A DNA stretch of 30,714 nt from Saccoglossus kowalevskii. Its lineage: Eukaryota; Hemichordata; Enteropneusta; Harrimaniidae. Under the pieces are notes generated by a model. It had not been told where the DNA came from. It ran no database searches and saw only the letters and a program-made list of their open reading frames with translations. Below are positions 1,664 to 29,320 of this stretch, in pieces. The stretch covers positions 136,787 to 167,500 of the forward strand of contig NW_003125889.1 in the NCBI RefSeq assembly GCF_000003605.2, written 5' to 3'. The stretch's first letter is position 1. Each line of letters starts with the position of its first letter. Both the position numbers and the translations under genes were made by a program.

Positions 1664-4600
1664 CCAGGTATATCATCTATCGTCTTAACCATGCCTTGAA
1701 TAATTGAAAACATGCTCTCAAACAATTACAATGATTTTTCAGGTACCGTAAAATCTGTATTAGAAGCCGCACCCATTCTTTTTGAACAATTGAGACCTAA
1801 AAATTCATCATTTCTCATAATTGATGAGCTTGATATATGACTTGTGATACCACAATAAATACAAGTTCTGTTAATTCGTATCCTACATGTGATATCAAGA
1901 TGGATGATGTATTTTTTGTGAGTCAATGCTACAGTACTTACTCTGTTGATCCAGCTCCATCTCTGTTTAACACTTTCACAGCAATCAGATTTACATCTTT
2001 AGCAATTCCATACATGGCGCCACCAATGGTGCCTTGGGGAAAAAAATAAACAAATGTGACAAAACTGCATGTACAATATTCTTATTTTCATATTTATATA
2101 GATAATCAAAGAATAGTTTATAAGTATCATTATTATTATAACAATAAATAGTGTAGTACTACAAAAAACAGAATCAACCTCTCTGTCTTCATGCTCTGTA
2201 GACATACCCCCACTTTGCTTATCACATTTGCTTGCATAAATCCCCCAGCCTTACCTTAGTTCATCAACACAGTCAGGCGACCCAGTCAATCAGGTTAGCG
2301 TACAGAGGAGACGACGCTCTCACAAAATGATAAATTTTGATATTGAAATCAGTTGTTGACCATTTTATTTGATGCAGATTTTAGTATTAAATAGTTGTTA
2401 CCTAACAGTTTCTTTTTTTAAGTGGTTTCTACTCAATAATCCAACCTCCATATAAAAACTACCTCTCTATAAAAGACCTTTTTAATGAAGTCTCATGGGT
2501 TGTCACTATACACAGGTTAGACTGTACAATACTTCACCTACCTGCTACGTGTGTTCCATGTCCATTTTCGTCTGTCTCAGGAGATGGCACATCAATGGTG
2601 TCAATGCCCTAAACACAAATGAACACTAATGGTCATATAAGAATTCAAAACAACTATCAGTCCACACAGAAAAGAGCAGATTCTGCTCCAGAAACTTTTC
2701 CTGGTAGGTAGGTAGGTACCCAATTTTTTTTTTAATATTGATTTCTATGCAAATTAGCTATGGTCATTCCACCAACGATGTATTTATTTTTCCATTTTAA
2801 GTACTTCCTTCTAATGTAGGGAAGCGTTTACTTGTATTTAATGGAAATGTATTTTGAAAACTAATTTTCATAAGATAATTTTTCATACCAGTAGTTAAAC
2901 CTAGAAGTACAAATCTCTGCCAACCTACTTGCCATTTAATGAATCAGTTCTAATTATAAAACAATATAAAAATGGTAGGATGGATTCATTTGTAATTACC
3001 GGTACAGTTTTGAATGTATTTTTCTGTAAAATAGTTGCTAATTTTTAATCAAATAATTCACCACAAACAGTTCCAGATGAAAATTTTCAAAAAATATTGA
3101 TAGCTTGGGTTCATTTTGTGAATAGTGATAAAAACTAACTTTCTTTTCGACCTACGAATATGTAATTTCTGTAATTCTTTATATAAAACAGTATCTATGG
3201 AAACAAAAAATTTCATTGATTGAATTTATATGTTTGTAATATCTTACCCATGTTGCTCTTCCTTGAAAGTCGGTATGTTCCAAATAGATTCCACTAACAA
3301 AAAAACAAAAAAAAATGGAAAAATATCATATCCATATATGGAATCATTTAAACACAAGTACACGTCATTTAAACACAAGTACACGTCATTTAAACACAAG
3401 TACACGTCATTTAGCATTCTCACGTACAAATGTAATGTACAGCTTTTGATCCATCCACAATCGAGTAGTGTATTTATCATGCTCGTGTCGCACATTTTGA
3501 TTATGCATTTTACCACATCAGTCTGGGTCCTGAAAACTTTTTACTGGATTATTTGTTTAAAGACATGGTTGCAGAGACGTAGGCAATCCTAAAAGTCAGG
3601 TCGTCTTGTTTGTGGTTTCCCATAGTGAGGTTATGTCGCCATTATGGTGGTTAAAATGTGCGATGCAAGCGTGATGAATAAAATATGGTACTTGAATGTG
3701 TGGCGCAATAGTTATAAATGTACGACACCTTCATGTGATAAATGAGTGGTGTGAATGAAAAACGAAATTAATCACAAGTTGTGCAAATGCTGTACTGTAT
3801 CAACATTATATTTCTCACACACATGTACATGTCATCTGTGCTGTTATACCAAGACATCTGTTGAAAATGCTGACCTGCGCTAGATTTCTTCAATATTTAT
3901 TTGAACACTAAGAACCACAGATTTGACCTTATATACAAATATACCTTTGACCTTAAAGTGTAAGTATTGGGATTACGATAGGAACATGTGTGCCAAATTC
4001 GGTAGCTTTATTGTGAACATGCATATACTGACACTTTTGAGCTTTAGTCCCTAAAAATTGACATATTATGTGGGTTACATAGGAAACCTGTGTGCCAAGT
4101 TTAAAGTTCCTAGCTATTAAACCTTGTAGCCAAATACTGATCACACATACATGTACAGCAGTAAACACCCTACTTGCATTGTGCTAGCACATGTAATGAT
4201 ACAAGTCTACAACCCTCTATTTTTAGAAACATTGCAAATGATAATATATTATTAAATAGTATTTTAAGGTAATATTAAATGACACATAAATATTTTGTTT
4301 TGAAATAGTGGACTAAAACATCTAAAGAACTGGGTAAAATTTGTTTACAATATTACCAGTTATGATACCATTTATTCAAATTGTAAGTACAAGATTCTCT
4401 ATAATGAGATTTCATAAAATTTCATAGGGAATCTAATAATAGAGTAAGACCTGCACAATAGTGGTCAATATACTCACGTGTCAATTACATAGGCATCGAC
4501 ACCATCACCAGTAGCATCACCTAGACAAAACATAATACAAATGTAATAATATCTTTATTACATTTTTAAAAATACAATTTTTCTATCAGTTTATAGCTAT

Positions 4601-7600: not shown

Positions 7601-10600
7601 TCATTCCATATTTGGAATTTTCATTTCCTAATATGGTAGGATGAAAATACCCTGTAAAAATTACAGCACGCTGTAACTTATGGCGTTACGATGACAGATG
7701 TATAATAATATAGCATTTATCTCTAGTTGAGTTATTTTCTATTTGAACTGCATCAATATCACACAACTCATTTAATAGTGAATAATTTGATAGCGAATCT
7801 TGCTTATCCATGAAAAACACAAAATCAAAACTGGTTCTGTGATTTTTTACACATATATAAATTCTATACTTGAAATAATATTTTTACCTTAGAGAACCTT
7901 GAAATGAATAACCCATAAAATGACTCATCTTGAATTCTCGTAGTATTTTAAAAGACGTGTTCTGGTTTGAGATGAGGCTATTGACATTCTTAAAGTGCTT
8001 TACAACTGAAACAAGAAGAGATTTGAATATTATTGCATCACATACAAAATACACTGTTAATTATTGGTTACATAAAAATAATTCAAATCACCTACACTGC
8101 TAATTATTGGTTTCATAAAGATAATTCAAATCGCATACACTGCTAATTATTGGTTACATAAAAACAATTCAAATTGCATACATTGCTAAATTAATGGTGA
8201 CAAAAAAACAATTCAAATTGCACACACTGCTAATTATTGGTTATATAAAAATAATTCAAATCACATATATTGCTAATTATTGGTTATATAAAAATAAATT
8301 CAAATCGCATACATTGCTAATTATTGGTTATATAAAAATAATTCAAATCGCATACACTGCTAATTATTGGTTACATAAAAATAATTCAAATCGTCTACAC
8401 TGCTAATTATTGGTTATATAAAAATAATTCAAATCGATCGCATACATGGCTAATTATTGGTTATATAAAATAATTCAAATCGCATACACTGCTAATTATT
8501 GGTTACATAAAAATAATTCAAATCGCATACACTGCTAATTATTGGTTACATAAAAATAATTCAAATCGCATACAATGCATGAAATAATTCAAATCACAAG
8601 TACTGCTTATAATTGGTTACATAAAAAAATTCAAATCTCATACACTGCTAATTATTGGTTACATAAAAATAATTCAAATTGAAGGCACTGCTAATTACTG
8701 GGTACAAAAAATAATTCAAACCACATGTACATGTTGTATGAAATGAATGCTATTTTCAAAACATAGTTTTAAAAAATATAATCCTGTACAAATAGTATCC
8801 CCATTTCTTCATAAAATATAAAACAAAAACATTGGAAAAATATTGAATGCTGCTCATTAATTTGATCTGATCATGTGGTTGGTGTATGAGTCATCCATTC
8901 AGACTGTCAATTTCTCATCTACCTGCTTCAACTGAAGTGTTGCTTTGAAATACCACAATGTATTCATCAGCAATCAATGTCTTTGAGTCTAATTGATAAA
9001 CAGGAGCTGGAATGAAAGCAAAAAATAATTATAAAAATGTTATAAAACCCGAATTATCCAGAAGTAAAATATCAAGTATGAGAGAATTAACACTTCAAAG
9101 ATGTAGACAATAAACACTAATCAAATTATTAACAATTATCAACGCATGCCACCAACAAATTAATTAAAGATCAATTGTTTTAAATCATATCAATCTAGAT
9201 ATAGAAGCCCATCTTCACTCTAAAATCAAGGTACATTGTACAACCTTTAGGGACGACGTCAAAAGATCGATGTCGGATAAAAAACTTATTTCCTTTAGTT
9301 TGGGGGTGGGGGGTTTTGACCTCAAAAAGTTCCCATCCTACAAAAACGATTTTATTTTTTAATGAAGTCAAAAAAATCTTGGAGTATTTTTAGTTCGTTT
9401 TTTCTATCCAATCATGGACAGAAATAACCGAAAAAAGGAAAAAAAAACAGAAAAATAGTTTGGTTCGAGTGTAAATCTGTACGTCAAATGAGGTGCATTT
9501 GTAAAATTTGTTTACACCCACCCGACAACCAACTGCTATGCAATACTACTGTCTGATTATCAATTTGTATTTAATGGTGAATGTAGTCTGACGCCATGAC
9601 CAATATTTATCAATTAAGTTTCAGTGGGGGGTAGGGGGGTTCGGATAAAAAGTAAAGGAATTAAGTTTTTTATCCGACATCGATCTTTTGACGTCGTCCC
9701 TTAGTTGGTCAGTAAATAGAATCCTCTGTTGAATGAGTACTGAGAAGAAATATCAAAAATACAACTGATATACCGGTAGATACAGATTATATAAATTATA
9801 AAATATCCATATTAATCAACATTTGCCAAAAAACATATATATAACATGCTTATATCAGTATTTAAATAATAACTAATTATATATGTCTTATGTAATAATT
9901 AAATAATAATTCATTTGATTTTCTATTTCCATTATTTTTATTTTTTTTTAAATATATATTCAAATATGTAAATAAACAGTAACAATTAAAAAACAATAAG
10001 ACTAGAATAAAAAATGCATTTTCAAAATAAACAAAAAAAATTACCGGTATATATATATAGATTTATTCTCCAATTATTTACAATACAATCTTGAAATCAC
10101 CCCCCTCCCCCAAATAACCAAGCTCCTAGTTGAAACACTAATTAAAATTGAAATAACTAGTTGGGTGTATTGTACACACACACAGGTGATCCACCTACCT
10201 ATCTTTCCACAGGTTCTTTACATATGCAAATATAACAAATTATTAGTTAACATATATGCTAAATATATGAAAATTAAAAACCATTTACATGTATATAGGT
10301 TTTTTATTTATGTGGAAAATTATGCTGTTTTTGATATGAGCAGTGTTCTCTCCAGCATGGTGGTTCATTTGCATAAAAATATGAGGTTTTTTTTAATGAT
10401 ATCATTAGCATAAGAATAACTTCCATTTTTTTTTTGAGAGAGAGTTTGAGCATGGTAAAGCCACTGAGCTCAAATATGTGAAATTTCTGAGAGAACACAG
10501 AGTTGTGATTTGATTACTACAACTCACAGGGTTCTTATGTTTGCTAATTATATAGTAGTTACATGCAGTATACTCATTGCATAGGCCATCCAGACTGAAT

Positions 10601-14231: not shown

Positions 14232-16746
14232 TTACTCTTCAACTTGAAGTGCGCCAACACACGGCTGGTATAGTCCCCGGGTAGCCTGACACATTTGGGT
14301 GTTGAGATAGATACCCGATCGGCCTTCTTGACTGCAGTCACAGACAGTTATTTGATAATGTGTCTCACTCTTTGCAACAAATTCTTGCAAGGCACGATAG
14401 CATTTGGCGGGACACTCGGAAACACCGACATCCAAATCAAAACACTGGCTGTACAGAGCGAATATGTCCATCTGCAGCTGATCGTAACATCCGGGTATTT
14501 CTTGGCAACGATTACTCACAGTGTCACAGTATAGTCCCGGATATGCAGCAATCTGTTGATAAACATGGAAACCAACAAGTTTTGCGATTAGTAATTGAGC
14601 TCATTCGAATGTCAGCGTGGTGACGTCACTGCTAGATGAAAAGGAGGTACTATTAAATTGTTTTACAACTACTTGCAGGTCAAGCAGGAGGACAAGACAA
14701 CAAGACAGTATTTGGGCAGTGGAAGAACTTGTTTTGAAAGTTCCACCTGAACCAAACACATCAAATACACAGAGACGGTTGAACAGAACTAGAAGACAGG
14801 GTATCCTCCTGGTATTTCTTTAAAATAACTTTAAAATAACAGTGTTTTGATTTTTGTCTACATTTTATCAAAAAGGGGAGGGGTAAATTTGTAATTAAAA
14901 ATCAATAGAAAGAAGTTGTTTTTGATTTTACAGAACAGTCATATGTCCTACATATACAAGCAAAGTGCCCACATATAGCTATGGTGATGGTGAGAGACGT
15001 TTGCAGAAACTCGTCTTAAAATATTACCATTTAGTACTTCGGAATCAACGTAGGTTAACTTGAATAATACTCACGCGCGGATTTAGAGAAGGCGCGCCAC
15101 CCCCTCTCTTCAGCCCGCAAAAAAAAGCTGACAAATCAATTGACAAACTCAGCCCATGTTAATAGGAGCGCCCCCTTACCGAATTTCTGGATCCGCCAGT
15201 GATACTGAGACTTATACGTAATCCATAGCATTATTTGTATCATTCATCTACAGTCCCTTGATCCCAGAGGGACTGTTATTTATCATATAAAGTACAGTAC
15301 ACTGTACTCAGTGTAGATGTCATCCAGTGTACATTTTCGCTACTGCATTTAGATTTTGCTCGTGCATCGTTACATTACTAGTACCCTGGACGATTTTAGA
15401 CATGACTATTATCACAAGATTTTACGAATTCACTCGGACGGTATTAATCCGAGCCAATATGCCCAATGGGAAGTCGTTATGACCAAAGATAAACTGGAAA
15501 CATGTTTAATTGTCGACAATTCAGTTTCAGAACAGGAAGTTAAAAACAGGTAATTAAAAACTTATTTTTTCGGTATTCGTATTGAACGCATACCATGGCC
15601 TACTGCTATATTCCTAGCAAAAACATTATTTTTAGTTCTGATACAATATCACATGTGTTTACTTTCGATGTTTCGAGTGATGGGCCTTATTAGGATACAG
15701 TAACAGTTATTTTTTTACTTATCCGAAATCTATGGCAAAGGATTGCGTCGGAATCACAAGTACTCCAATGTTCTAAGTAAGATGACGTCATCCATCCGAT
15801 AATGACAATATTTGTAAGTTTAATGAAATATGTCGCTACCTCAGCACAAAGATAAAATGTTTTTAACACATTGCTTTTCTCTTCTCAACAAACGCTCCAG
15901 CATCCCCCATTCATTTTGTGTCTTCTTAAGAAACAAAGTGAAATGTTCTTTTCACACAAAATAAGTGTAACAAGACCGTTTAATTAGAAATTCAGTATCA
16001 TTTGTACGTCAGTCTTTTTAAAATATGTATTCGAGACTATTAGTTTTCCACTCCTATTACACACTTCATATGTACATTGAAAAAAGAAAACTTTTTATTC
16101 GAAAATTGATTATAGATTATCGAATAATTGCGATTGTAGAGTAAGATTGTTTGAGTGATGGCTGTACGTTTGGCTGGCGTTTCAAATCATCAATTCCTTT
16201 AGCACTGTTTAAAATATGTCATGTATTATTCCGGACATACAAGCTACGTATTAAATGCTATAGGACGCCTGCAAATATGAGTTTCATCTATCACTGTAAT
16301 TAACACCATGTTAACATGTGTCATTTCCTCAATAACAAACAGATAAACACACATCTTGTTGACAAAGCTGAATTATCGCCTCGAGGGGTTGGAAACCAAT
16401 AGCATGCACAATAATACGTGGAGTAGGTGAAGACAAGTCAGAAACTTCTACTCAAATCGTAAACTTGAACAATATACGAGAAATACGAGAGCATATCCTT
16501 AACAATGTGATTTGAATGAGCAGTTAGCGTTTGGTGCGATTCAAATGTCATTAATGTCCCCAGTGCTACGGTTGATTTGTTTGATTCTTGTCAAACAATA
16601 AATAACATGAAATCTGACATAGAAAAAAAAAACACTGTTGGCTGATGTGAAGATACAATATTAGTCGTAATGTTAGTACTCACAGTTGTGCGGAGTAACA
16701 CGACGAACACAGCTAGACAAATTATTCGCCTTCCCAATTGTTCCAT
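14232..16746 (-). CDS. Small secreted cysteine-rich protein, GDNF-receptor/GAS1-like domain
   Basis: Two exons: 16746-16684 (63 nt) and 14552-14232 (321 nt, stop included), joined in phase 0, predict 127 aa. Exon 1 encodes a signal peptide (MEQLGRRIICLAVFVVLLRTT) ending at a good GTGAGT donor. Exon 2 follows a TTTATCAACAG acceptor. The mature part has ten cysteines (first YCDT, then NRC, PGC, SQC, SECPAKC, VCDC, QMC, QPC). The CPAKCYRAL and CDC segments resemble GDNF/GAS1 domains, which bind ligands or receptors at the cell surface. There is no transmembrane segment or clear GPI signal; the chain ends shortly after the last Cys in ALQVEE. The family call rests on cysteine pattern only. A further exon inside the 2.1-kb intron is possible. 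The ATG has a favourable context (CAACATGG). Confidence 0.7.
15072..15201. mobile_element. Small MITE with diverged inverted ends
   Basis: The left end reads CACGCGCGGATTTAGAGAAG. The reverse strand of the right end reads CACTGGCGGATCCAGAAATT, so the arms are imperfect inverted repeats. Both arms are followed inside by G/C-rich text (GGCGCGCCACCCCC versus GGGGGCGC). ATACT flanks both sides (15067-15071 and 15202-15206). The CASTGGCGGATCCAG end resembles hAT-type MITEs, but the visible duplication is only 5 bases. Confidence 0.55.
15250..15287. repeat. Hairpin with TTTATCATATA tail, copy 2
   Basis: A 9-bp stem (ACAGTCCCT paired with AGGGACTGT) around a 9-base loop is followed by TATTTATCATATA. 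It matches the stem core (GTCCCT/AGGGAC) and tail of the hairpin at 12933-12970. Confidence 0.55.
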
Positions 16747-17730
16747 GTTGTACAATGCCGAAGAAGACGATCGGTTGGATGCGTCCGTGCATATGATGCC
16801 AAAAACACTAAATGTATACTTCAAGTTGTGATGAATTTTATTCGCTAGACAAGGGCACTAAATAATTTTACGATCGTATTTGTCCCGTCGTATGTGGTGA
16901 TTCAAAGGTTTAAAACACTGACGTGACCTCCAACATATATGCATTACATTTATTTTGATCCAACTCCAATTTCTTTCCGCGAAGTCATCTCAGTAATAAC
17001 GTCACTTTGACAGGAACACGATTTATTTAGATTATTTTTAGAAGAGATTCTGTTGGCAAAAGTTCACTCACTGCATTGTTTTCGTAATTCTATCCTAACC
17101 AGCGTGACAATAACAAAATTATGTTCTGTCCCTGGAAGATTTAATGTTCGTGGTGATAGTCTGCGACCGCACATCTCGCTATTAAACACACTGTGTCGTG
17201 ACGTCACACCATATAAAAGTCATATCCAACGCAGTTCATTGACCTTTCGTAATAAAGGTCTGATTGTTAATTCAGAGAACTCAGTGATTATACGTACATC
17301 AAGTTTGAAATGTAAATAATAAGAATTGTTTGATAAATGTATTTTAATTATGAGCAACAAATATATGCCACTACCTATAGCTCAATTCATTAAGACCAAT
17401 CGAAATACTAGTCAGTAACTGTGTTTTAGGTTTGTAGATTTAATTGTGTTTTTGTTGTTGTTTTCCTTTTTTTATTTGTTTTGTTATGTATGACTCCTTT
17501 ATCTTCTGCGGGAGATATGAGTTAACAAATATTATTATGTGTATTCCACGAAATATCTGGTATCACCTTGGTAACGATTTCACTCATGAGTATACTCTGT
17601 ATGAAATAAAAAGCATGATTACATTTTCAAATAATGATGGATGTATATTTCAACAATTAAGAATATTAATGAGCTGCTGGATTGGTCGGTTACGGACATC
17701 GAGTTACGAGAATATCGAGTTATACAAATG

Positions 17731-17875: not shown

Positions 17876-19083
17876 AATGAACGTAAGCTCGAACAATTCA
17901 GCATCTCAATGTGAATACCAAAGTTCTTAGTGGATCTTCATATTATTTATATATATATTCAGTTAGGGTCAATCACCGTCATTGACCTCAATAGTCAAAA
18001 GGCAGACTTATGACGAAGATTACTATTCCGAACAAATGGTTCAACACTAGTCTACGACATGCCGCAAGTCAATACGTATTGTAATAGTTTAGTTTAATAT
18101 TGTATACAAACCTATAAATAGGTGTAATTCAAGCAAGCAACGATTTTTCAATCCAATTTGTTTAACCTCAATTTATTCTTCAAGAAAGCAACAACATTTA
18201 ACTCTTGCTGTATCCACAGAATCTTTCAACTTCGAAACACTCGTTTCTTCATATATTGTATAGTCATTCAATCCTATTGTACGGCATTAATGGTTCCACA
18301 TCGCCAGTGGTTACAGAATACTCCTTGGCAAACGTTTGTCGAAACACCAAATTTATATGCATTCTATAACCCAATTTACAAACAAACGGTTGCTGTGAGG
18401 GTGTAGCCCGAAAAAACTTTCCCCCTAAAAAATTATTCTTAATTTCCACCATCGTTTGATACTGACCACACAAAACCACCCCTGCTTTACGACTTCAATG
18501 CTTGAAATAACTCCATCCACTCAAAAACTAATTGAACCTTTCAGCAGAAGTTTGTAATGGGAATTAAGGCTAATAACACCATGGCTTGCCTCTCATTAAT
18601 TTATTGGCTACTTAAATAAATAGTTTTTCTAATACTGTGCGAATTACTGACTGTCACTGTGCTCACCATGAACAATAGAGGGCGGGAATGTATTAAATTA
18701 TGTCCTTCAGAGCGTTTTAAGAGTAATTTGTCAGATTTGTGCTGTTTAATGCGATATGCTGTACACGGTAGGGACATTACTATGGTATAATAACGTATTG
18801 CCTCATTAATAATTAATAACACAGTTACATTTATTTCTGCATAATCCACAAGTAACCCAACATTAACAACATTAGCGTAAGTCATGTGACATATTTTTTG
18901 CAAAATTAACTCGACACCGTAAAGTCATGTTGATGATCACGTAAAATTTACTAATGGCAAATAATATGATAATACGAATTCTTGTAAATGTTCAAACAAT
19001 TTCAAAGTTCCATGAGATAATAAATAAAGGTGCAATTCACGTACAATAATATACAAGAGTAAATACATCATGATTCAGTCCTT

Positions 19084-21025
19084 TTATGACTTCCTGAGTT
19101 TGTTTACCGCAATTGATTTTTTCACAAGACGTCTGACTTGTGTTTTCGAGACTGACTTTCCCTCGTGAACTTTGATGTCACTCGGATCGGTAATACTGAT
19201 AGCTGGCGTAGATGTGGCAGTTGTCGGTGCAAGTACGACTGTTTTCTTTGGTGATCGCTTTACCACAGGTGATGTCGTCAACACTACTGGGGATTTTCTA
19301 CCAGAACAACATGAACGTGGCGATGAAGATGGGTTACATACAGCACACACTCCGGTGACAGGGCACGTTGAGCTGGCTCTCGTTTGAACGCTAAAAAATA
19401 ATCAGATGAAAGAAAATGAATGTACAATTATTGTTTATTCGTTATTTATTGCAGTTTGTTCAATTGGGACATGTAAAGCCATTTTGAATAATACTTAATT
19501 TAGATTTACCATGCATCATCGTCACTAACATGTCTTCGACGTCTTGAAATCATTAATGCTCGTTTCTTGCTTCGCACAGTACTCACTGCGGCGGTTGGTT
19601 CACTGTCATCTCGTTTTCTCTTCATTCGTGACGTCACAGCTGTTGTATCTATGTTAATTTCTGGTTTGGCAAGTTCACTTTTAACTTCTGACATGCTCTC
19701 AAATTCGGCTATCCTCTTTGATCTTTCCGATGGTTCCTCACTTGTTCCAACTGCCATCATGGTTTTTGCGGTGCGTTCTGTAAATTAAATATTATAATAT
19801 TAGTATCTGTGGGTTTTCGAAAAATACAGATATTTTAATATATAACGAAATGTTCATAACAATTGTTCAAATATATTTTGTTAAAAACTTACTTCTTTTG
19901 GTCAATGTCTTTTCCACTCTATCCGCCATGGCATCTTCATCAACCCTTCCTCCTCTTGCATAATATTCATTAATCACTTCATGGTTCACCTCCTCTAATA
20001 ATTGTTGTAAAGACATCTCTTCACGAGCGCCACCAATGATAACTTTGGACAATAACTTGGCATCTTTCAATGACACGTATTGGCCACCAGTTACGTGTGC
20101 GATAGCCATAAAGAAATCTTTGAAACCTTCAGCATAACTACCACAAACTACGCTGTATAAAGTGATGTTCTGTTCCGCCATTTGTCGTGCGATTTTCATT
20201 GGATCGTGACCAGCCGGACAACCTGTAAATATTGTGCATAATTATGTTAATAAGAACATAACAATAATGCATAATCTGATAGATTGAACTTTCTTCACGT
20301 TTTCGGATTATAAATAATTAGCTCACCTTTTGGGAATCCGTCACCGCTGTCACGTAACCCATGAGGAGGTGCATCCGCGATCAGTACACATACTTTAGTC
20401 GCTAGCGGGCGCCAATTGAGATTTAAAGCTTCATGAAGACCATCAGCGACGGCTTCTGGACCATCTCCCCCTGCAATGGCATGTGGACTTTATTTAGTAA
20501 TTATTATTTACAATGAAATCATAGTCGTAAATAAGGAAAAATATTGATATTATGATCGACGGTGTTGAAATATATTACACAAACCTCCATTTGCTTTCAT
20601 ATTGTCCATTTGTTTCTGCATGTCTTTCAAAGAAGGCGTGAAATCCAACACACGAGTTACAAAAGTACTCTCTTGTGGAGGATGATCTCTGTACTCTACT
20701 AAGGCAAGTCGGATATCGGACATCTCCTTGGCAACGATTTCATCAACGATACTCTGAATATTCTGTATTGGGTACACAAAGCTTTATATTAGTATCATTT
20801 TTGAGTTTCAATGTCAACAAAATATTCCAAAGCATTTAAATATACTGTCATAGTAATATTTTATAGTATGTTAGTTTGGGGGTCATTCACCTTTCTAGCC
20901 TCATTGATCCAGCTGCCCATACTGCCAGTGCAGTCCATGACGAAAGCCAAATCTAAAACCGATGCATCGTGCTGTTTCAGTAAAGGCTGGGGGACAAAGT
21001 CGGGTACTTTGATAGCGCCAGGCAT
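19084..21025 (-). CDS. vWA gene A: vWA domain protein with basic cysteine-containing tail (453 aa)
   Basis: Six exons: 21025-20891, 20762-20585, 20470-20327, 20222-19893, 19777-19510 and 19390-19084. They total 1362 nt and phases match throughout. Residues about 24-235 form a von Willebrand A domain. LDLAFVMDCTGSMGSW gives the metal-site DxTxS (D31, T33, S35), GGDGPEAVADGL follows at 105-116, and ADAPPHG contains D137. This combination resembles the vWA half of vwkA-type alpha-kinases, but no kinase domain follows. Residues 265-352 are hydrophilic with basic clusters (RMKRKR 313-318, RSKKR 331-335, SRRRRH 340-345) that could be nuclear signals. Exon 6 has a cysteine cluster (CPVTGVCAVCN, then SCCSG) and ends RRLVKKSIAVNKLRKS. 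The likely role is metal-dependent protein binding; location and partner are unknown. The start follows ATCAACATG and matches gene B. Confidence 0.92.
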
Positions 21026-21105
21026 GTTGATATTAACGGGGTATTGTTGGGTTTCTAGTTCACTTTGCTTAGTTAGTACTTCACTGTCTGAATTCAGTTC
21101 AGTTG

Positions 21106-21227
21106 TGATTTAACTCTGATAGGCTACACGTCTTTTATAGGCTCTACCTACTATTGTGTTATTACCGACAAGCAGCGACGTGTTGGCCGAAGTGCCTGAA
21201 TGACCTAAATATAGAACACTGACGTCA
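21106..21227 (-). promoter_or_regulatory. Promoter of vWA gene A: CRE and TATA box
   Basis: A palindromic CRE/ATF site TGACGTCA (21220-21227) precedes a canonical TATA box, TATAAAAG on the minus strand (21139-21132). An initiator-like TCACAAC lies about 30 bases downstream, near 21106. The ATG is about 107 bases from the TATA box. The same block is conserved upstream of B and pseudogene C. Motifs are seen; the start of transcription is inferred. Confidence 0.6.
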
Positions 21228-21270
21228 GTATTGTGAGCGTGTTTCGACTTGTTTGAACTCTAGAGGGCGT

Positions 21271-22311
21271 GTGATGAGAAGGTAAAATACAATGCACTGT
21301 ACAAGGGTGTCTAGAAATACGTTATTGGGAGCGTTTAAGGTTTGGTACATGAGCAAATGGTTATTCGGGGTGTCTAAAGTGTCCCGAATAAAGACAAAAT
21401 ATAATACAGTTTAGTTTATGAGCATCATAATGACTTATTTCTATTCTTCATCGGATGAAGTCTGAATCTATGTATTGGGTTACGTTAGTCTGTGTTCGTC
21501 ATTCAGGTTTCATTTCTCAGACATGGCTGGATTGAATTTGTGCACAGCTGGTACAAGTTATAATGGCGGCTGGCTACCATTTTTGTCATAGAAAAACCGC
21601 CCTGAATTAACATTTTAACATGTCATCCACTGCTCATCGTACATGCTTTGGTTGATTTCATTCAAACTTAGCATTTACAGATGTACATCATTTTGCTCCG
21701 TGACTCAATTAAGAATGGTCGACTGAAACCCATTTCTTTTCAAGTATTCTATCTATTTCTAAGATACGCATTAAAATATTGTGTTGAAATTTGGTACAAA
21801 GGCAAGACATAGTGGATTTCAGTTCTATTTGGAGTGTGCAATTTAACCGATTGGCCGCAAAGAAATTGAAAATAAAAAATGTGATTAGTTGTTGTAATGT
21901 TATCTAAACTTAGTGTGAGACGATGAGTTACTCATGTATGTCAGTTTGAAGTTCAAGTCAAAATGACCGATTGGTGGCCATGTTGGTTTTATTTGTCTAC
22001 CATTTCCAATTTACCTCGACTGATTTTGTTCTAAACAGGCACAAAGATGAAATTTATATGCACTTTTGGATAGAACAAGTATTTTTATTTTCGCAATTTA
22101 ATTTACTCGTCCTACACAAATTTCATACGCACACGAATGACCCTGTTTTCAATACTTAGTGGTATTTGTTGTGTCAGTTTCAATGTCTATGTAGGTTTTT
22201 ATCGTCTAAAATATCCTGGTACCCCCGCCCAATCTCAGCCCTCCTCCTACACATTTTTTGAAAACACCCTTATAAAGTCTTTATGCGCGAATCACACAGT
22301 ATTTTTGATTA
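21271..22311. other. Spacer between divergent vWA genes A and B, no gene seen
   Basis: About 1 kb of AT-rich DNA at the centre of the inverted duplication. Phrases such as ATGGCGGCTGG (near 21563), CCGATTGGCCGC (near 21849) and CCGATTGGTGGCCATG (near 21967) recur and look like decayed dispersed repeat rather than coding sequence. Confidence 0.5.
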
Positions 22312-22355
22312 TGCGCCCTCTAGAGAACAAACGGGTTGAGACTCGCTTACATTAG

Positions 22356-22444
22356 TGACGTCCGTGTTCTATATTTAGGCTATTCACGTATCAGCTTGTT
22401 TGTAAAACACAATAGATCGAGTGTCAAGAGACAGCCAATAAAAG
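22356..22444 (+). promoter_or_regulatory. Promoter of vWA gene B with altered CRE and TATA
   Basis: Aligned with gene A, the CRE is TGACGTCC (22356-22363), which breaks the palindrome. The TATA position reads CCAATAAAAG (22435-22444) instead of CCTATAAAAG. The following leader (AGAGTTAAATCACAAC) is shared with A. Confidence 0.5.
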
Positions 22445-22550
22445 ACGTATAGCCTGCCAGAGTTAAATCACAACCGAACTGACTTCAGACAGTGAAGTGA
22501 CAACTAAAATAAGTGAACTAGAAACCTAACAATAACCCGTTAATATCAAC

Positions 22551-24512
22551 ATGCCTGGCGCTATCAAAGTACCCGACTTTGTCCCCCAGCCTTTACTGAA
22601 ACAGCACGATGCAGCGGTTTTAGATTTGGCTTTCGTCATTGATTGTACTTCGAGTATGGGCAGCTGGATCAATGAGGCTAAAGAGGTGAATAACATGAGA
22701 TTGACCAAAGAATGTCAATACATATCACGTGTATTTATCAACAGCTACTCTTAGTTTTGTTTATTTATTTCAACATAATACCAACATAATAGTAACAAAG
22801 AATTATACATCTATTTCAGAATATTCACAATATCGTTGATGAAATTGTTGCAAAGGAGATGTCCGATATTCGACTTGCCTTGGTAGAGTACAGAGATCAT
22901 CCTCCACAAGACAGTACTTTCGTAACTCGTGTGTTGGATTTCACGCCTTCTTTGAAAGACATGCAGAAACAAATGGACAGCATGGCGGCGCACGGAGGTA
23001 TGTAAAACATATTTCAACTTAACTTCAAAATGCTCACAAATACACGATTGGTAAATAATTAATAATAATTGAAAATAATATAATTTTTTTTCAGGAGGAG
23101 ATGGTCCCGAAGCAGTTGCTGATGGTCTTCATGAAACTTTTAATCTAAATTGGCGCCCGCTAGCGACTAAAGTATGTGTACTGATCGCGGATGCACCTCC
23201 TCATGGGTTAGGTGACAGCGGTGACGGATTCCCAAAAGGTGAGCTAACTATTTATAATCCGAATTTTGTAATTAACTAGACGTGAAGAAAGTTCAATCTA
23301 TCAGATTATGCATTATTGTTATGTTCTTATTAATATTGCACAATATTTACAGGTTGTCCGGCTGGTCACGATCCAATGAAAATCGCACGACAAATGGCGG
23401 AACAGAACATCACTTTATACAGCGTAGTTTGTGGAAGTTATGCTGAAGGTTTCAAAGATTTCTTTATGGCTATCGCACACGTAACTGGTGGCCAATACGT
23501 GTCATTGAAGGATGCCAAGTTATTGTCTAAAGTTATCATTGGTGGCGCTCGTGAAGAGATGTCTTTACAACAATTATTAGAGGAGGTGAACCATGAAGTG
23601 ATTAATGAATATCATGCAAGTGGAGGAAGGGTTGATGAAGATGCCATGGCGGATAGAGTGGAAAAGACATTGGCCAAAAGAAGTAAGTTTTTAACAAAAT
23701 ATATTTGAGCAATTTTTTTATGAACATTTCGTTATATATTAAAATATCTGTATTTTTCGAAAACCCACAGATATATACTAATGTATTTATGTAATTCATT
23801 TACAGAACGCACCGCAAAAACCATGGCAATTGGAACAAGTGAGGAACCATCGGAAAGATCAAAGAGGATAGCCGAATTTGAGAGCATGTCAGATGTTAAA
23901 AGAGAACTTGCCAAACCAGAAATTAAGACAGGTACAACAGCTGTGACGTCACGAATGAAGAGAAAACGAGATGACAGTGAACCAACCACCACAGTGAGTA
24001 CTGTGCGAAGCAAGAAACGAGCATTAATGCCAGTGATTTCAAGACGTCGAAGACATGTCAGCGACGATGATGCATGGTAAGTCTAAATTAAATATTATTA
24101 TTTAAAATGGCTTTACTTCTCTTAATTGTTCACACTGCGATCAATATCGAACAAACAATAATTTTAGAATGTATACTCATTTTCTCTAATCTAATTAATT
24201 TTTAGCGTTCAAACGAGAGCCAGCTCGACGTGTCCTGTCACTGGAGTGTGTGCTGTATGTAACCCATCTTCATCGCCACGTTCATGTTGTTCTGGTAGAA
24301 AATCTCCTACACTGTTGATGACATCACCTGTAGTAAAGCGATCACCAAAGAAAACAGTCGTACTTGCACCGACAACTGCCACATCTACGCCAGCTATCAG
24401 TATTACCTATCCGAGTGACATCAAAGTTCACGAGGGAAAGTCAGTCTCGAAAACACAAGTCAGACGTCTTGTGAAAAAATCAATTGCGGTAAACAAACTC
24501 AGGAAGTCATAA
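22551..24512 (+). CDS. vWA gene B: vWA domain protein, paralogue of A (454 aa)
   Basis: Six exons: 22551-22685, 22820-22997, 23095-23238, 23353-23682, 23806-24076 and 24206-24512, with the same exon sizes and phases as gene A. Exon 5 alone differs in length: one Met is lost and PV gained near RALMPVISR. By eye there are about 29 substitutions and 2 small indels against A. The exon-4 part of the vWA domain is the most constant, with about 3 changes in 110 residues. The metal site is DCTSSMGSW (D31, T33, S35 kept; G34 replaced by S). GGDGPEAV, ADAPPHG, the basic clusters and the cysteine cluster are all kept. All splice sites and the frame are intact, so B is probably functional. It is transcribed away from A; a tandem decayed copy lies 2.4 kb downstream. 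Confidence 0.92.
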
Positions 24513-24618
24513 AAGTAATACAGCATGATATATTTACTCTTGTATATTATTGTACATGAACTGCATTGAATCTAATTAAACTTTCAACTAGTTTGAGACA
24601 TTACAATCAATCGAAAAA

Positions 24619-26655: not shown

Positions 26656-26715
26656 AGCTGATTTTGTGACAAGCGCCCCCTGGAGAACAATCAGGTCGAG
26701 ACACTCTCACAACAG

Positions 26716-26800
26716 TGACGTCAGTGTTCAATATTTATACACGTATCAGCTTGTTTGTAAAACACAATAGATCGAGTGTCCAGAGACAGCCAATAAAAGA
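26716..26800 (+). promoter_or_regulatory. Promoter remnant of vWA pseudogene C
   Basis: An intact palindromic TGACGTCA (26716-26723) and the B-type CAATAAAAGA (26791-26800) are followed by the shared leader AGAGTTAAATCACAACCG. The promoter is better preserved than the coding region behind it. Confidence 0.5.
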
Positions 26801-26905
26801 CGTGTAGCCTGCCAGAGTTAAATCACAACCGAACTGACTTCAAACAGTGAAGTACCAACTAAAATAAGTGAACTAGAAACCCAACAATATCCCTTTAATA
26901 TCAAC

Positions 26906-28355
26906 ATGCCTCGGCTGGCGCTATCACCCGACTTTGTCTCCCAGCCTTTACTGAAACTGCACGATGCATCGGTTTTAGATTTGGCTTTCGTCATTGATTG
27001 TACTTCGAGTACGGGCAGCTGGATCAATGAGGCTAAAAAGGTGAATAACATGCGATTGATCAAAGAATGTCAATACATATCACGTGTAATTATTAGCGGC
27101 TATAGTTTTGTTTATTGTGTTCAAGTTAGCATTTCGATGGTATTCCACATAATAATACCCACATCTGTTCCAGAATATTAACAATATATTTGACTTGCCT
27201 TGGTAGAATACAGAGATCATCCTCCACAAGACAGTAATTTCGTGACTCGTGTGTTGGATTTCACGCCTTCTTTGAAAGACATGCAGAAACGAATGGACAA
27301 CATGAAAGCAAATGGAGGTTTGTGTAATATATTTCAACACCGTCGATAAAAATATAATCTATTTTATTTTTTTCCTTACGACTAAGGTGTAAATAATGAT
27401 CTGGAAGCCGACGCTGATGGTTTTCATCAAGCTACTAGTTTATAAATCTTAAATGGCGCCCGCTAGCGACTAAAGTATGTGTACTGATCGCGGATGCATC
27501 TCCTCATGGGTTAGGTGACAGCGGTGACGGATTACAAAAAGGTGAGCTAATTATTTATAATCCGAAAATTGTAATTAACTAGACGTAGAGAAAATTCAAT
27601 ATGTCAGATTATGCATTACTGTTAATGTTCTTTTAACATAATTATGCACAATATTTACAGGTTGTCCGGCTGGCCACGATCCAATGAAAATTACACGACA
27701 AATGGCGGAACAGAACATCACTTTATACAGCGTAGTTTGTTTTTTAATTGTTATCATTGTTGGCGCTCGTGAAGAGATGTCTTTACAACAATTACTAGAG
27801 GAGGAACCATGAAGTGATTAATGAATATCATGCAAGAGGGGGAAAACGAGATGACAGTGAACCAACCACTACAGTGAGTACTGTGCGAAGCAAGAAACGA
27901 GCATTAATGCCAGTGATTTCAACACGTCGAAGACATGTTAGTGACGATGATGCATGGTAAGTGTAAATTACTAGTAAATATTATTAAACATGGCTTTACA
28001 TCTTTCAATTGTTCACACTGCGAACGCATACTCATTTTCCTTTATGTAATTATTTTTTAGCGTTCAAACAAACGGAGTGTGTTATGTATGTAACCCATCT
28101 TCATCGCCACGTTCATTTTGTTCTGGTAGAAAGTCTCCAACACTGTTGACGACATCACCTGTAGTAAAGCGATCACTAAAGAAAACAGTCGTATTTGCAT
28201 CGACAACTGTCACATCCACGCCAGCTATCAGTATTACCGAAACAATCAAAGAGCGTGACATGTGGAAAGTTCACGAAGGAAAAACAGTCTCGAAAACACA
28301 AGTCAGACGTCTCGTGAACAAATCAATTGCGCTAAAAAAACTCAGGAACCCATAA
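26906..28355 (+). pseudogene. vWA pseudogene C, tandem copy of B
   Basis: All parts occur in order but are broken. Exon 1 (26906-27040) is still open: MPRLALSPDF, then DCTSSTGSW with M36 changed to T. Exon 2 (27175-27317) has lost about 35 bases after AATATTAACAATAT and then reads a stop (LPW stop). Exon 3 (27389-27541) has an altered start with in-frame stops; ADASPHG replaces ADAPPHG. Exon 4 (from 27661) keeps its first 80 bases, then lacks about 100 bases (the GSYAEGFKDFF to LLSK segment). It is fused directly to exon 5, removing intron 4 and half of exon 5 (junction near 27841). The exon 5 donor (after 27956) and exon 6 (28061-28355) remain, with an in-frame deletion removing RASSTCPVT. 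It cannot encode a complete vWA protein. Confidence 0.92.
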
Positions 28356-28459
28356 AAGGACAACAACAAAATTCATTTACTGCTGTATATTTTTGTACGT
28401 TGACAATATCATTATTGAATCCAATGGAACTTATTATAGATCAATTACAATCATTCAAA

Positions 28460-28519
28460 ACACGTCTTATTGAATCTCAGAATAAATCGGCTGTAGTAAA
28501 CAAACTAGAGTAGTCGGAA
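28460..28519 (+). pseudogene. Decayed second C-terminal motif downstream of pseudogene C
   Basis: ACACGTCTTATTGAATCTCA and the following bases read TRLIESQNKSAVVNKLE then stop, about 105 bases after the exon 6 stop. It aligns with 24619-24690 after gene B, so the extra motif predates the B-to-C duplication. Confidence 0.6.
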
Positions 28520-28782
28520 GCAAGACAACATATATGTTTGCCTTGACACGTGTTTTACATAAATTTGAATCGACTCTACCCGATATATTCATTATATATT
28601 CAATTGCAGTACAATAGATTGAAATATAATGTACATTGCTTGTTATATTTTGAAGGAATAACATCTTTTTATAAATTTAATTATGTTGAAATAAACATAT
28701 TGCATGCATTGTATTGATTATTTGTGCATACAAATATGTAATTAATTTATACATACTTACTTCCGGGCGATGGTCTTTTGCA

Positions 28783-29012
28783 CTGCCTTTCACTGGTTTG
28801 AAAGTAACTAGACATTGGAATATACGCAGTTTTTAGCGCGTCATACGATCGACATATTGCACAATGGAGAATCTAAATGAACGCCTTGCTAACAACTATG
28901 TATAAATTGCTAGCGGTATGAGCTCACTTTTCAATTGCAATTCGTTGAACACAATGCAACGAAAACCAGTGTCCGCGAGGCAATACAATTGAAGATTTAC
29001 TGGACTTAACTG
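28783..29012 (+). repeat. Unit-end block of the vWA tandem duplication, copy after C
   Basis: Counterpart of 25427-25810, shortened by deletions. It runs almost directly into exon-4-like sequence of fragment D, so the next unit lacks promoter and exons 1-3. Confidence 0.65.
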
Positions 29013-29040: not shown

Positions 29041-29320
29041 AATTCTTCACGGACATCGCAAACGTGATTGGTGGCCAAAACGTGTCATTGAAAGATGGAG
29101 ATGTGAGGAGATGTCTTTACAACAATTATTAGAGGAGGTGAACCATGAAGTAATTAATGAATATCATGCAAATGTTAGAGTTAATAAAGATGCCAGGGCG
29201 AACAAATTTACAGTGGGCAAAGAAGTCAGTTTTCAGAAAAAAATTATGTATTATAAGCAGTTCGTTTGCTTTAAAAATCTACAGATAAATACTAATATAG
29301 TACATTGTATTATAAATCAT
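29041..29320 (+). pseudogene. vWA gene fragment D (exon 4 and intron 4 remnant)
   Basis: TTCTTCACGGACATCGCAAA and what follows matches gene A/B exon 4 (FFMAIAHVTGGQYVSLKDA), with Met, Ala, His, Thr and Tyr positions altered. A deletion joins SLKDG to EEMSLQQLLEEVNHEVINEY. The exon end is scrambled (VRVNKDARANKF). Intron-4-like text (ACAGATAAATACTAATAT) follows to about 29320. D retains the exon 4 middle that C lost, so D did not arise from the present C. Confidence 0.85.

Follow-up and report, generated by a model that had tools for sequence, protein, structure and literature searches.

Patchy divergence between two head-to-head vWA genes of Saccoglossus kowalevskii and the probable part played in it by past gene conversion

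A stretch of 30,714 nucleotides from the hemichordate Saccoglossus kowalevskii (assembly GCF_000003605.2, contig NW_003125889.1, positions 136,787 to 167,500 of the forward strand; hereafter the window, in whose own numbering all positions are given) contains two neighbouring genes of the vWA type, here called A and B, which point away from each other, and the remains of two further copies, C and D. How did A and B come to be so alike? An earlier note on this DNA offered either a recent inverted duplication or ongoing gene conversion between the two arms, and proposed that a base-by-base alignment should tell, with uniform divergence speaking for duplication and patches of identity for conversion. 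In our alignment the divergence is strongly non-uniform and patchy. We think it probable that the pair is what survives of an older vWA cluster from which two copies were lost, and that it has been patchily homogenised by gene conversion together with purifying selection. Thus of the two proposals a simple recent duplication does not hold up, while conversion is favoured both by the patches and by the way in which the agreement among A, B and C changes along the gene. We speak of past, patchy conversion, a safer wording than ongoing, because a single genome is at hand and because the most similar block, alike as it is, already carries substitutions and indels that separate A from B.

Two intact genes, unevenly diverged

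The two arms, each consisting of a 5' flank, a gene and a 3' flank, form an inverted BLASTN match (A, 18982-21269, minus strand; B, 22314-24606, plus strand) with 85.6% identity over 2356 columns (E = 0). Gene A runs on the minus strand from its ATG at 21025 down to 19084 and has six exons (20891-21025, 20585-20762, 20327-20470, 19893-20222, 19510-19777 and, with the stop, 19084-19390) that encode 453 aa. Gene B, on the plus strand from its ATG at 22551 to 24512, likewise has six (22551-22685, 22820-22997, 23095-23238, 23353-23682, 23806-24076 and, with the stop, 24206-24512), encoding 454 aa. In the spliced models all 10 of the 10 introns have GT-AG borders and both frames are open, so that the head-to-head pair of intact six-exon genes described in the earlier note is borne out. 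The proteins are identical at 423 of 455 aligned positions (93%), and the 110 codons of exon 4 hold 3 replacements, just as had been estimated. Both genes are presumably expressed.

The likeness does not extend evenly to the DNA. Over the whole arms 248 of 2239 aligned sites differ (11%), and thus the description of the pair as near-identical suits the proteins and one block within the genes, not the arms as a whole. Nor are introns and promoters almost as similar as exons, as had been supposed: mismatches amount to 60/1359 sites in exons (4.4%), 125/551 in introns (22.7%) and 37/227 in the 5' flank with the 5' untranslated region. The 3' flank differs at 26/102 sites (20/97 in the three-copy alignment discussed below). 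From exon 1 to exon 6 the mismatches are 9/135, 16/178, 8/144, 6/330, 10/265 and 11/307, and the synonymous divergence per site (dS) is 0.096 overall, ranging from 0.03 in exon 5 to 0.35 in exon 2. Introns 1 and 2, which are too far apart in A and B to be aligned with certainty, differ at 58/124 (47%) and 33/94 sites (35%), intron 3 at 3/99 (3%), intron 4 at 11/115 and intron 5 at 20/119 (23/119 in the three-copy alignment). Of the non-coding parts, only intron 3 and the beginning of intron 4 are as similar as the exons. A young palindrome would show uniformly low divergence over exons, introns and flanks; here introns range from 3% to 47%, with exons at 4.4%.

The five introns are indeed heterogeneous to a degree that chance hardly allows (chi-square 84.7, P = 2e-17; without intron 1, 42.2, P = 4e-9). 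Taking introns, flanks and four-fold sites as putatively neutral gives 1081 sites with 203 mismatches, and segmentation of these sites picks out A 20406-19805, with 7/242 mismatches inside and 196/839 outside. The log-likelihood gain for this segment is 34.3, the highest in 120 shuffles being 8.8, and the same segment wins when intron 1 is left out (gain 24.6, where 73 shuffles reach no more than 10.6). This low-divergence block, which we propose as a converted tract, runs from exon 3 to intron 4 on the minus strand (19805-20406) and matches 23159-23772 on the plus strand in B, coordinates that were transferred by hand from the alignment. Among non-coding columns alone, intron 4 has the longest run free of mismatches, 56 columns (5000 shuffles, P = 0.0006). 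Regions in which neutral sites have diverged little therefore lie beside others in which they have diverged much, as conversion would leave them.

Selection has also been at work. A and B differ at 27.8 of 308 synonymous and 32.2 of 1048 nonsynonymous sites (P = 3e-5 on rounded counts), and this synonymous excess indicates that both genes have mostly been retained as coding genes under purifying selection. The four-fold sites of exons 1, 2, 5 and 6 are themselves little diverged, with 8/135 mismatches; the flanks together with introns 1, 2 and 5 have 174/666 (P = 2e-8), or 83/448 when introns 1 and 2 are dropped (P = 2e-4). Either these exons were more easily reached by short exchanges, in line with what the Caenorhabditis review cited below says of diverged introns, or the introns have been changing unusually fast.

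A third copy and its changing allegiance

The two remaining copies were found by BLASTN and alignment. Copy C (26674-29009, plus strand) is broken: exons 2, 3, 4 and 6 each carry deletions, another deletion reaches from exon 4 to exon 5, intron 4 is absent, and a B-like 3' flank continues in pieces to about 29009; copy D (about 29043-29244, plus strand) is a remnant of exon 4 only. Both stand in direct orientation, the same as B, and are decayed tandem copies, as the earlier note had said. B and C can be aligned in pieces for about 1.3 kb beyond the stop of B and 0.65 kb beyond that of C. Sequence common to the regions upstream of both B and C was sought, and none was found at E 0.1.

In all of A, B and C the homology stops some 240 bp before the ATG, at one short motif, CGCCCYCTRGAG (21269 minus, 22314 plus and 26674 plus). 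By its resemblance we take this motif to be a candidate CTCF site. The window of 30.7 kb also holds seven perfect palindromes of the cAMP response element (CRE) type, TGACGTCA, at 14621, 15783, 17199, 19629, 21220, 23944 and 26716. Two of them (21220 and 26716) are found upstream of A and of C, with B having one mismatch at the equivalent site; two more (19629 in A, 23944 in B) fall inside exon 5, and that at 17199 stands directly before TATAAA.

With C as a third member we can ask which pair is closest in each part of the gene. In the 5' flank B and C differ at 21/232 sites, A and B at 37/227; in intron 1 the figures are 32/130 and 58/124. B is thus nearer to C than to A in both regions, where the latest split is not the one between A and B. 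We sorted the variable columns by the pair that agrees. In intron 1, 16 columns join A with B, 39 join B with C and 7 join A with C; in intron 2 the counts are 8, 2 and 15, and in intron 3 they are 12, 1 and 2. The mix of agreement shifts along the gene, with a chi-square over all segments of 98.3 (highest of 2000 shuffles, 48.2) and P = 5e-9 over the six non-coding segments only. Runs of agreement were examined with a test modelled on the style of GENECONV: a B=C run of 17 sites in intron 1, an A=C run of 11 sites at the border of exon 2 and intron 2, and an A=B run of 12 non-coding sites in intron 3 were all unmatched in 5000 shuffles, and an A=B run of 13 sites in exon 6 has P = 0.001. A compensated indel in C causes an alignment artefact that enters the three-copy counts for exon 1; positions 21004-21020 of A were masked in the run test only. 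Since such pattern tests are conditioned on variable sites, they are less sensitive to the local mutation rate than the pairwise tests.

Two single vWA genes on other contigs, both distant paralogs (L004/L009 and L010), serve as outgroups. In exon 4 their identity is 57% and 53%; judged by eye, exons 1-4 of L004/L009 break off in the alignment where those of A do, and exons 2-4 of L010 appear as separate matches split at the same places. Changes were polarised in exons 1-4 only, one outgroup locus lacking exon 1.

Weighing the explanations

What history could give two proteins 93% alike within arms so unevenly diverged? We propose that there was once a local cluster of four copies of one vWA gene type, with A inverted and B, C and D in direct order. 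Two members, C and D, would have been lost by decay, while A and B would have been held alike in protein by purifying selection and by interlocus gene conversion between neighbours. The clearest rewritten patch would be the block described above, some 600 bp that begin late in exon 3, take in exon 4 and stop within intron 4, and shorter exchanges with C may have taken place before or during its decay. That the exchange was gene conversion and not double crossover we infer, as we do any direction given to it.

Several observations weigh against this history. Intron 3 is the slowest non-coding segment between A and C as well (13/104) and the second slowest between B and C (16/114), and since this slowness is common to the three pairs, a low local rate or constraint may account for part of the patch, something for which the pattern tests allow and the pairwise tests do not. 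The A=C run shrinks to 5 sites when non-coding columns alone are taken (P = 0.056). Of the 12 variable sites in exon 4, polarised against the outgroups, 7 are changes in C, and thus many sites at which A and B agree record changes in the decaying copy. While the relationships among copies do change along the gene, the polarised shared-derived sites in exons 1-4 are few and mixed (BC 5, AB 5, AC 1). The uncertain alignment of introns 1 and 2 and the restriction to one genome count on the same side.

Could the pattern have arisen by some other route? A single recent inverted duplication, with later divergence shaped by selection only, would account for two intact genes, proteins that are 93% alike and a dS of just 0.096. 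It would not lead us to expect introns 1 and 2 to stand at 47% and 35% beside an intron 3 at 3%, nor C, rather than A, to be the closer copy to B in the 5' flank and intron 1, and since non-uniform divergence and the nearness of B to C leave a simple recent inverted duplication unsupported, we consider it quite improbable. The duplication could instead be old and conversion have played no part, selection (on regulatory or splicing elements) having conserved the exons together with intron 3 and the beginning of intron 4 while the other introns drifted. Purifying selection on the exons and the slowness of intron 3 in all three pairs fit such an account. However, the low divergence extends to four-fold sites, constraint alone does not predict the changing agreement among A, B and C, and the introns of A and B do not convincingly resemble either of the distant paralog loci; compared with L007-L010 they give two short matches to intron 5 (E 0.011 and 0.041), the first of which lies outside the paralog loci. 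We regard this account as unlikely.

The pair might also be no pair at all, two haplotypes or the reads of one copy used twice having been set down as inverted neighbours. The stretches adjoining the window do read N and our basis was the assembled sequence, but the window itself contains 0 N, the arms differ by 11% overall, the flanks beyond them are dissimilar to each other, and even the best block keeps its substitutions and indels. We searched the DNA of the 572 Mb assembly (4830 contigs), scoring the best candidates and skipping very common words, so that counts are lower bounds. A search with arm B showed no second copy of the pair: the 7 matches among the best 3 candidates were all to copies at this locus, within the window. 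The spacer between the arms (21270-22313, 1044 bp, part of neither arm) gave at least 39 matches, one at its own place and at least 38 partial ones elsewhere; none of the best candidates from the 572 Mb was another full-length copy of it. Thus neither homologous flanks nor, among the best candidates, a second copy of the locus was seen, a haplotype artefact is unlikely, and we hold an assembly error of either kind to be very improbable. The spacer was also considered as a repeat unit joining the arms and rejected as such, because among the best candidates its only full-length match is to itself, with relics of a dispersed repeat inside it at about its bases 173-776.

A bolder extension of past, patchy conversion, suggested by the low four-fold divergence of exons 1, 2, 5 and 6, is that the exons of A and B have been selectively homogenised by many short exchanges limited by homology, for some of which spliced transcripts may have been the template, with both flanks and most introns left to diverge. 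We judge this decidedly unlikely. If it were true, the locus would offer a compact cluster in which to watch exon-limited conversion among the members of an inverted pair still alive and a tandem copy in decay.

The family, the rest of the window and the meaning of the pair

Protein A scores 53.6 against VWA_4 (PF25106; cut-off 27) and 39.1 against VWA (PF00092; cut-off 23.8), protein B 48.8 and 40.4, and both also exceed the curated Pfam cut-off of Med25_VWA (PF11265). By eye, the translations contain D31-C-T-G-S35 in A and D31-C-T-S-S35 in B, the form D-x-S/T-x-S that we take to be part of the metal site of vWA domains, making metal binding by the two proteins putative. In the motif GGGDTPEAV both distant paralogs (L009 and L010) have the T, and A and B have G in its place. 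The protein may be an intracellular vWA adaptor; its tail is rich in basic clusters, and its location could, at a guess from the translation, be nuclear. A match of A exon 4 to RasGAP_C (E 0.005, below the cut-off, and weaker in B and in the whole of protein A) was dismissed as noise. Among solved structures a first search gave only six weak matches to integrin beta-8 (E 0.29 to 0.84), and a profile of four family members matched none at E 0.01. Pattern-seeded scans of prokaryote and viral contigs, which distant relatives can escape, found no relatives there.

Elsewhere in the window, a cysteine-rich open frame on the minus strand (14232-14623; no Pfam match up to E 0.1) has upstream of it a frame with a signal-peptide-like start (about 16675-16746, minus), and together these frames could perhaps encode a secreted cysteine-rich protein. 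Two 53-bp inverted repeats (9249-9301 and 9649-9701), 96% identical and about 350 bp apart, resemble a miniature inverted-repeat transposable element. Tandem arrays occupy 2-694 (321-bp unit, with relatives in the sequence upstream of the window), 3344-3413 (21 bp) and 8049-8720 (about 43 bp). Scans of the window with Rfam at gathering thresholds and for tRNA genes returned nothing.

Both adjacent inverted paralogs with conversion and mosaic patterns of divergence are already known. A review on Caenorhabditis (PMC3966223) describes interlocus gene conversion between adjacent inverted paralogs, including adjacent inverted hsp70 genes, and hsp16-48 modules that form an inverted repeat around 416 unique bp. 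A and B are likewise adjacent inverted paralogs with a short unique spacer, though of another gene family and host. According to the same review, conversion can take in introns, which diverge faster and may impede it, and the usual tract is 50-200 nt; the A/B block of about 600 bp is longer, yet within the ranges of the review's table. The GOT1 paralogs of Tigriopus californicus, as described in PMC3728101, form a mosaic of low and high divergence attributed to gene conversion, much like A and B; that work drew on several populations, whereas A and B are known from a single genome. It also describes a second paralog pair of which not every copy is still functional in all populations.

More generally, conversion being a well-known process, what we describe is otherwise ordinary genome evolution, of which this pair is a clear small example. 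Its exons suggest a recent duplication while much of its non-coding DNA looks old, and thus coding divergence alone would misdate the pair.

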